64,000 nucleotides of DNA from a bacterium (GTDB taxonomy: Bacteria; Armatimonadota; Fimbriimonadia; Fimbriimonadales; Fimbriimonadaceae), in contig JAIXQR010000001.1 in the NCBI GenBank assembly GCA_027485645.1, forward strand, positions 124,001-188,000, written 5' to 3'. Made by a program: the position numbers and the translations under genes. Under the pieces are notes generated by a model. It saw only the letters and a list, made by a program, of their open reading frames with translations. It searched no databases and was not told where the DNA came from. Below, in pieces: positions 28,913-29,895 of the stretch; the first letter of the stretch is position 1; every line of letters begins with the position of its first letter.

Positions 28913-29755
28913 CTACGGGGAGAGTCTTCCCGCGTGGCCGTCGATGTAGCTGACGGCGTTTTCGCCATTGTATCGGCCCGGGGTGGGGCGGTTGGTGGCG
29001 ACGTCTACGGCGTTTCGCTCGTTCTTGTTCGAGTCGAAGTACATCAGGGTCGCGGCGGGGTTCTCGATCACGGTAATGCTTCCCCCGACGACAACCACGT
29101 TGTAGGCGTAGCCGTACTGGTTGGGTTGGTAGTCAAAAATCGGTGTTCGGTAGTACTCCGTGCGCTTCACGTACCGAGTGGTAGCGTCAACCCAGTTTCC
29201 GCGTGGCAGCACGTCGTCATAGTCGGCGCTGTAGATGATGCTTCCGGTGGCAAGTGCTCGAACTCGAGTCAGGGATTGATCGATGAGCGGCGACGTGTCG
29301 TTGTAGCCAGGAATGAAGCCGTCGAGATACAGGATTCCGTTGCTGCCGTTGTACCGGCCGGGGTTTGGCTGGGTGGAGACTGGCGCCGTGGCGTTTCGTG
29401 CGAGCACGTTGGAATCGAAGATCAGCTGGGTTGCTTGCTCGTCCAATGAACTTCGGCTTCGGCCGGCGGCGGCAGAGTTAAGGGCAAAGCCGTAGTCGGC
29501 CGGGTCAACGGCGGGGGAGACGAAGATGTTGGGATCGGTTGTGTACGGCTCCATTCCGTCCATCCACAGGTTCGCTGCGGGGACGACATCGTCGTAATCA
29601 CCCATGTAGAGGTCAGCCGCGGTGGAGATGCTTCGGAGCCGCCGCAACGCAGCCTGGAAGTCGGCGGTGGTGACCTGGTCTCCGGTTCCGCCGCAGGCGA
29701 GGATGGTGATTCCGGCGGCGACGGCTAATCCGGCGAGGAGGGGTGACTTTCGCAT
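28913..29755 (-). CDS. Lipoprotein with two pseudopilin-like units
   Basis: 280 aa from ATG at 29755. A lipoprotein signal MRKSPLLAGLAVAAGITILAC places the acylated Cys at residue 21. The rest is an internal duplication. Unit 1 has LRRLRSISTAADLYMGDYDD, a Tyr-Gly segment, then NPGRYNGSNGILYLDGF. Unit 2 has LTRVRALATGSIIYSADYDD, QYGYAYNVV, then TPGRYNGENAVSYIDGHAG. The DYDD and Y-x-DG(H) motifs are those of the soluble domain of abundant DUF1559/pseudopilin-like proteins, but the type-IV prepilin leader and long N-terminal helix are missing. ATG at 29776 is an alternative start giving a seven-residue extension. Confidence 0.75.
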   Translation of the reverse strand: MRKSPLLAGLAVAAGITILACGGTGDQVTTADFQAALRRLRSISTAADLYMGDYDDVVPAANLWMDGMEPYTTDPNIFVSPAVDPADYGFALNSAAAGRSRSSLDEQATQLIFDSNVLARNATAPVSTQPNPGRYNGSNGILYLDGFIPGYNDTSPLIDQSLTRVRALATGSIIYSADYDDVLPRGNWVDATTRYVKRTEYYRTPIFDYQPNQYGYAYNVVVVGGSITVIENPAATLMYFDSNKNERNAVDVATNRPTPGRYNGENAVSYIDGHAGRLSP

Positions 29756-29895
29756 AGATTCAGTGTGCCCGGACATTGTGAAGAATCGATGACTTTTATC
29801 ACTTTAATTCCAATATTTGCTGTTTATTGTTGCCATCGACGCCTGGGACCCGCGAGAAGGGTCCGGTGGCTCGGAACGTATACTTAGATAGGCCT

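Follow-up and report, generated by a model that had tools for sequence, protein, structure and literature searches.

A gene in the window, the 64,000-nucleotide stretch of DNA analysed here, encodes a putative lipoprotein in which two pilin-head-like units follow one another without a prepilin leader. The window spans positions 124,001-188,000 of contig JAIXQR010000001.1 (GCA_027485645.1), from a relative of Fimbriimonas (Armatimonadota). Our reading, to which we give about an even chance, is that a pilin head was freed from filament assembly and reused, in doubled form, as a lipid-anchored two-site binding module in the envelope.

Architecture of the two-unit protein

The gene lies on the minus strand at 28913..29755 and encodes 280 aa (280 codons plus stop); an alternative upstream in-frame ATG, with its start at 29776 on the same strand, would yield 287 aa. 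The protein is laid out as a lipobox-type signal up to Cys21, a short linker and two units of about 120 residues, all given here with minus-strand coordinates. Its hydrophobic, signal-like N-terminus (residues 1-20, 29696..29755) ends in ITILA, carries the lipobox-type pattern and contains the hydropathy maximum; it reads MRKSPLLAGLAVAAGITILA followed by C21GG. Cys21 (29693..29695), the predicted lipidation site, is the sole Cys of the mature chain and is followed by the linker GGTGDQVTTA (residues 22-31, 29663..29692). Profile matches place unit 1 at residues 32-151 (29303..29662), with a profile that itself includes unit 1, and unit 2 at residues 157-280 (28916..29287). A promoter scan at the gene found none, and the single terminator-like site there is at chance level.

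The initial annotation had described a doubled unit with a repeated motif set behind a lipobox Cys. The doubling was borne out when the two halves were aligned with each other: 44 of 110 columns are identical (40%), with an alignment score of 210, and shuffled controls had a mean of 30, a standard deviation of 5 and a maximum of 73, so that 0 of 2000 reached the observed score. All three motifs, Y-x-x-DYDD, GRYNG-x-N and Y-x-DG, are present in both units. Only the leading A of A-x-x-Y, originally counted as part of the repeat, is confined to unit 1, as unit 2 reads S-I-I-Y.

For the lipobox we applied a pattern that we take to be PROSITE PS51257. It occurs in all six two-unit proteins that we identified, each of which has the lipobox-type Cys 9-11 residues ahead of unit 1 and no later Cys, in line with the earlier proposal. 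The pattern alone is weak because it also matches 12 of the 62 single-unit ORFs, many of which are probably plain membrane helices. The proposed absence of a prepilin leader held for the window protein, and up to E 1 neither PF07963 nor TIGR02532 matches any of the six two-unit proteins. The genome has one match to LspA and one to prepilin peptidase, so both export routes exist, and it has three secretin matches. LolA has no match in the same genome, and thus an outer-membrane or surface location of the lipoprotein is not to be assumed.

According to the proposed mechanism, the protein would leave the cytoplasm by Sec, signal peptidase II would cut before Cys21, and the lipid would then hold the chain in a membrane. 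After Cys21 it would carry two pilin-head-like domains without the leader and the hydrophobic helix half needed for entry into a filament. Assembly via the pilin helix is unlikely, given the absence of the helix's hydrophobic first half, and with the leader missing as well the protein would not be expected to polymerise by the usual route. We infer that the protein is lipidated, sits in a membrane, binds a partner and arose from prepilins, not prepilins from such a protein.

Kinship with prepilin heads

In Pfam and NCBIfam no model reached its cut-off with the window protein, and PF07596 (DUF1559/SBP_bac_10), the domain named at the outset, gave no row for it up to E 10. Its sole Pfam row, ARL6IP6 (E 0.0087, 16.6 bits versus a cut-off of 27), stays below the threshold. 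The domain assignment thus failed at the level of family cut-offs but found support in profile-profile comparison. When 28 units were compared with nine prepilin-leader heads whose leaders had been cut off, the match reached 99.8% with E 1.3e-27 and spanned almost the whole length; the whole two-unit alignment matched the same nine-head alignment at 99.0% and E 8.8e-18. From the nine-head set, two prepilin proteins were scanned; each scores above the PF07963 and TIGR04294 cut-offs, and one of them also above that of PF07596. The kinship with pseudopilin-type heads put forward initially is therefore upheld, and the profiles argue for shared ancestry of the units with the heads of DUF1559/H-X9-DG-type prepilins. 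A profile search of the PDB found no solved relative; its best match, a stretch of malic enzyme at E 0.69, was taken as chance.

DUF1559/SBP_bac_10 (PF07596) and H-X9-DG-CTERM (TIGR04294) proteins have in common with the window protein the order of head motifs (Y-x-x-D-x-D, P, ... DGH) as well as the profile kinship. Those that were tested combine a prepilin leader with a single head, whereas the window protein has a lipobox and two heads, is without the Cys pair, carries Y at the H position and is not matched by the models. In one gene cluster (L059), two single-unit proteins exceed the PF07963 cut-off, and their units fit the two-unit profile with values of 1e-23 or lower; with a leader at this level and a unit close to the two-unit profile, they join both worlds. 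The cluster (L059:5292-8034) comprises five adjacent single-unit genes that form a graded series, two with Pfam-recognised leaders and three with degenerate leaders or plain helices.

The AlphaFold2 model of unit 2 is confident (pLDDT 96.4, pTM 0.89) and shows a helix (residues 2-23 of the modelled piece) followed by four short strands, an order that presumably fits the pilin head. Neither Foldseek nor VIA-align returned a pilin among the matches of this model, and the pilin-head assignment therefore draws on sequence profiles and not on structure. The best fold matches in the PDB (E 1.9) and BFVD (E 1.1) were taken as no match, as was SuhB, the only VIA-align row (Z 3.6, 92 residues aligned). 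At full length the model reaches only pLDDT 32 and is of no use for placing the units relative to each other.

Two further marks set the units of two-unit proteins apart. Among the 62 single units, both of two Cys positions are filled in 40, the first only in 13, neither in nine and the second only in none, while 12 of 12 units of two-unit proteins are without both (two gapped rows scored as none; Fisher p 2.5e-5, a value that ignores kinship). This distribution among the single units suggests that the pair is a probable disulfide. The H of H-x9-DG is H in 48 of the 62 single units and Y in all 12 units of two-unit proteins. In the unit tree, a branch with support 97/98 separates these 12 units from 14 single units. 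Units 1 and 2 do not form clean groups of their own, as unit 2 of G008 falls among the units 1 with weak support. A single ancestral duplication likely lies behind the two-unit proteins, judging from this tree.

Distribution of the unit and its hosts

We searched 113 genomes of the order, 20 of them in the genus of the window. The two-unit profile matched seven at E 1e-30 or better, and six of these, own genome included, encode a two-unit lipoprotein; all six belong to this genus, in which 14 of 20 genomes are without the gene. The protein of the seventh genome (G061) is single-unit, as is a second match in G005. The five other two-unit proteins are 85, 39, 36, 35 and 38% identical to the window protein, and the frame is open in 6/6 genomes. 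Reading of the translations named the neighbours of the window gene prfA and nadA; among five genomes compared, one of them (G008) with only ~1.4 kb of flank, the order prfA-gene-nadA is conserved only in the nearest (85%) relative. The adjoining genes gave no link to a pilus or T2SS operon. Against the nearest relative, dN/dS by the Nei-Gojobori method is 0.126 (0.13 for unit 1, 0.09 for unit 2), with synonymous sites near saturation; these sequence comparisons indicate that the two-unit gene is under purifying selection.

In the own genome, the unit profile gave 55 matches in 54 ORFs, and PF07963 matched 73 places. A leader is present on 47 of the 54 ORFs, 46 of them with a PF07963 match just upstream; the 47th (C1:832894) was found by reading, as coordinate pairing of leader and unit did not show it. 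By eye, the seven leaderless ORFs comprise the window gene and two polytopic membrane proteins, together with three proteins whose starts are signal-peptidase-I-like and one single-helix protein. The earlier view that the unit normally sits under a prepilin leader thus fits this genome; it does not extend to the closest subfamily, in which Pfam recognises a leader in 2 of 68 ORFs. The initial annotation had suggested looking for further lipoprotein-type copies in the genome; among these seven ORFs, a lipobox is seen by eye only in the window gene. By reading, a thrS-like gene is closely followed by two polytopic membrane proteins, side by side, that bear the unit (L009:6361-7812). Two adjacent secreted proteins at L013, propeller-like by eye, each end in a partial unit; for L007 and L132 a propeller likeness was also seen by eye only, and Pfam gave no such match.

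The closest subfamily was taken as all unit matches with E no higher than 1e-18, 74 in number, which come from 61 genomes and 68 ORFs; the N-terminus classes were partly assigned by eye. Besides the two Pfam-recognised leaders, two near-canonical leaders were missed by Pfam. Six ORFs are the two-unit lipoproteins, and four single-unit proteins have a lipobox by eye (L086, L088, L089, L093). In the remaining 54 of 68 neither leader nor lipobox is seen by eye; the majority begin with an ordinary membrane helix, and a relic such as LFPVFAQA is frequent among these. The single-unit, lipoprotein-like L088 is encoded in G004, a genome that also holds a two-unit protein.

Other hosts extend this picture. 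A BlaR1-type M56 domain is followed by the unit at the C-terminus of eight ORFs from seven genomes (L115, L127, L128, L129, L130, L133, L134 and L136), and PF05569 is above its cut-off in 8/8. By reading, the helix ahead of the unit keeps an R-G-hydrophobic prepilin-like start in seven of the eight, with Q or S at E5. L131 has a signal-like start and two units, then a TPR-like part and a CHAT domain. In the closest subfamily the unit already amounts to a mobile module of the envelope, found in membrane-anchored, lipoprotein and M56/BlaR1- or CHAT-fused forms. Three neighbouring ORFs of a Chthonomonadaceae MAG (L061:1-4567) have ~4 weakly matching units per chain and no prepilin leader, and L041 resembles TIGR03066, below the cut-off.

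The Bacteroidota fimbrillins FimA and Mfa derive from lipoproteins and have another fold, which polymerises. They resemble the window protein as pilus-type proteins exported as lipoproteins and would differ from it in this fold. Leaderless forms of the present family are on record. Tuwongella immobilis, of another phylum, has three SBP_bac_10 proteins with a Sec/SPI signal (PMC8567305), likewise a non-prepilin one, and the leaderless state is therefore not new; the section on them names no lipobox or doubled form. In Fimbriimonas ginsengisoli the N-terminal methylation motif is present in 65 of 79 PulG-like genes and hence missing from 14; the part of the paper that deals with them does not describe lipoproteins or two-unit forms (PMC4072686). 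Planctomycete genomes each carry tens of DUF1559 proteins, and two of the 68 paralogues of P. limnophila are essential, as stated in the sections on this family (PMC10632474). The relevant part of another paper groups DUF1559 with solute-binding proteins and lists nine such genes as up-regulated on cold and salt shock (PMC2754498). We found no report of lipoprotein or doubled DUF1559-type proteins, or of a pilin-M56 fusion, in the literature searched, which includes few subscription journals.

Possible roles of the doubled head

The most likely role of the window protein would be two-site binding of a carbohydrate, peptide or protein partner in the envelope. That a head without its helix is under selection and recurs on receptors and lipoproteins speaks for a part in binding or sensing, and the position of the unit behind BlaR1-type M56 domains and on the TPR-CHAT protein fits such a module. 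The M56/BlaR1 fusions, as read from the sequences, make binding or sensing of some ligand more plausible. A wider form of this reading, which we offer tentatively and hold to be less likely than not, is that in this order the pilin head became a general envelope sensing or binding domain. It would then sit behind BlaR1-type M56 proteases at the place of BlaR1's sensor, occur on secreted proteins, CHAT proteins among them, and appear twice on the lipoprotein, which would be a dedicated two-site ligand-binding member outside any filament.

Display on the outer membrane as a surface adhesin would suit a lipobox combined with a repeated domain, and the gene also diverges faster than its neighbours, with 84% identity to the nearest relative versus roughly 87-99% at the main flanking ORFs. 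However, the fold searches matched no adhesive fold, LolA is missing from the matches, and to our knowledge no lipoprotein surface export is known in Armatimonadota; we regard this role as unlikely. A decoy, cap or regulator of the pilus or T2SS machinery would meet pilins via its own heads, and the genome has both the many related prepilin-leader proteins and matches to secretins and prepilin peptidase. Yet the gene is not beside pilus or T2SS genes, only the nearest of the five genomes compared shares its neighbourhood, most of the genus does without it, and its nearest relatives are themselves mostly leaderless, which makes such a role quite improbable. The patchy presence in the genus and the many unit-bearing paralogues could also reflect a protein with almost no function, left over as prepilin genes expanded. 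That both units are constrained and all six frames are open argues against it, and we consider it highly improbable.

Under the preferred reading of a doubled, lipid-anchored binding module, the forms that no longer carry the filament helix, in particular the M56 protease fusions, provide heads whose ligand is directly testable. If it is true that the head alone binds or senses, this would hint at the role of the prepilin-borne versions too.
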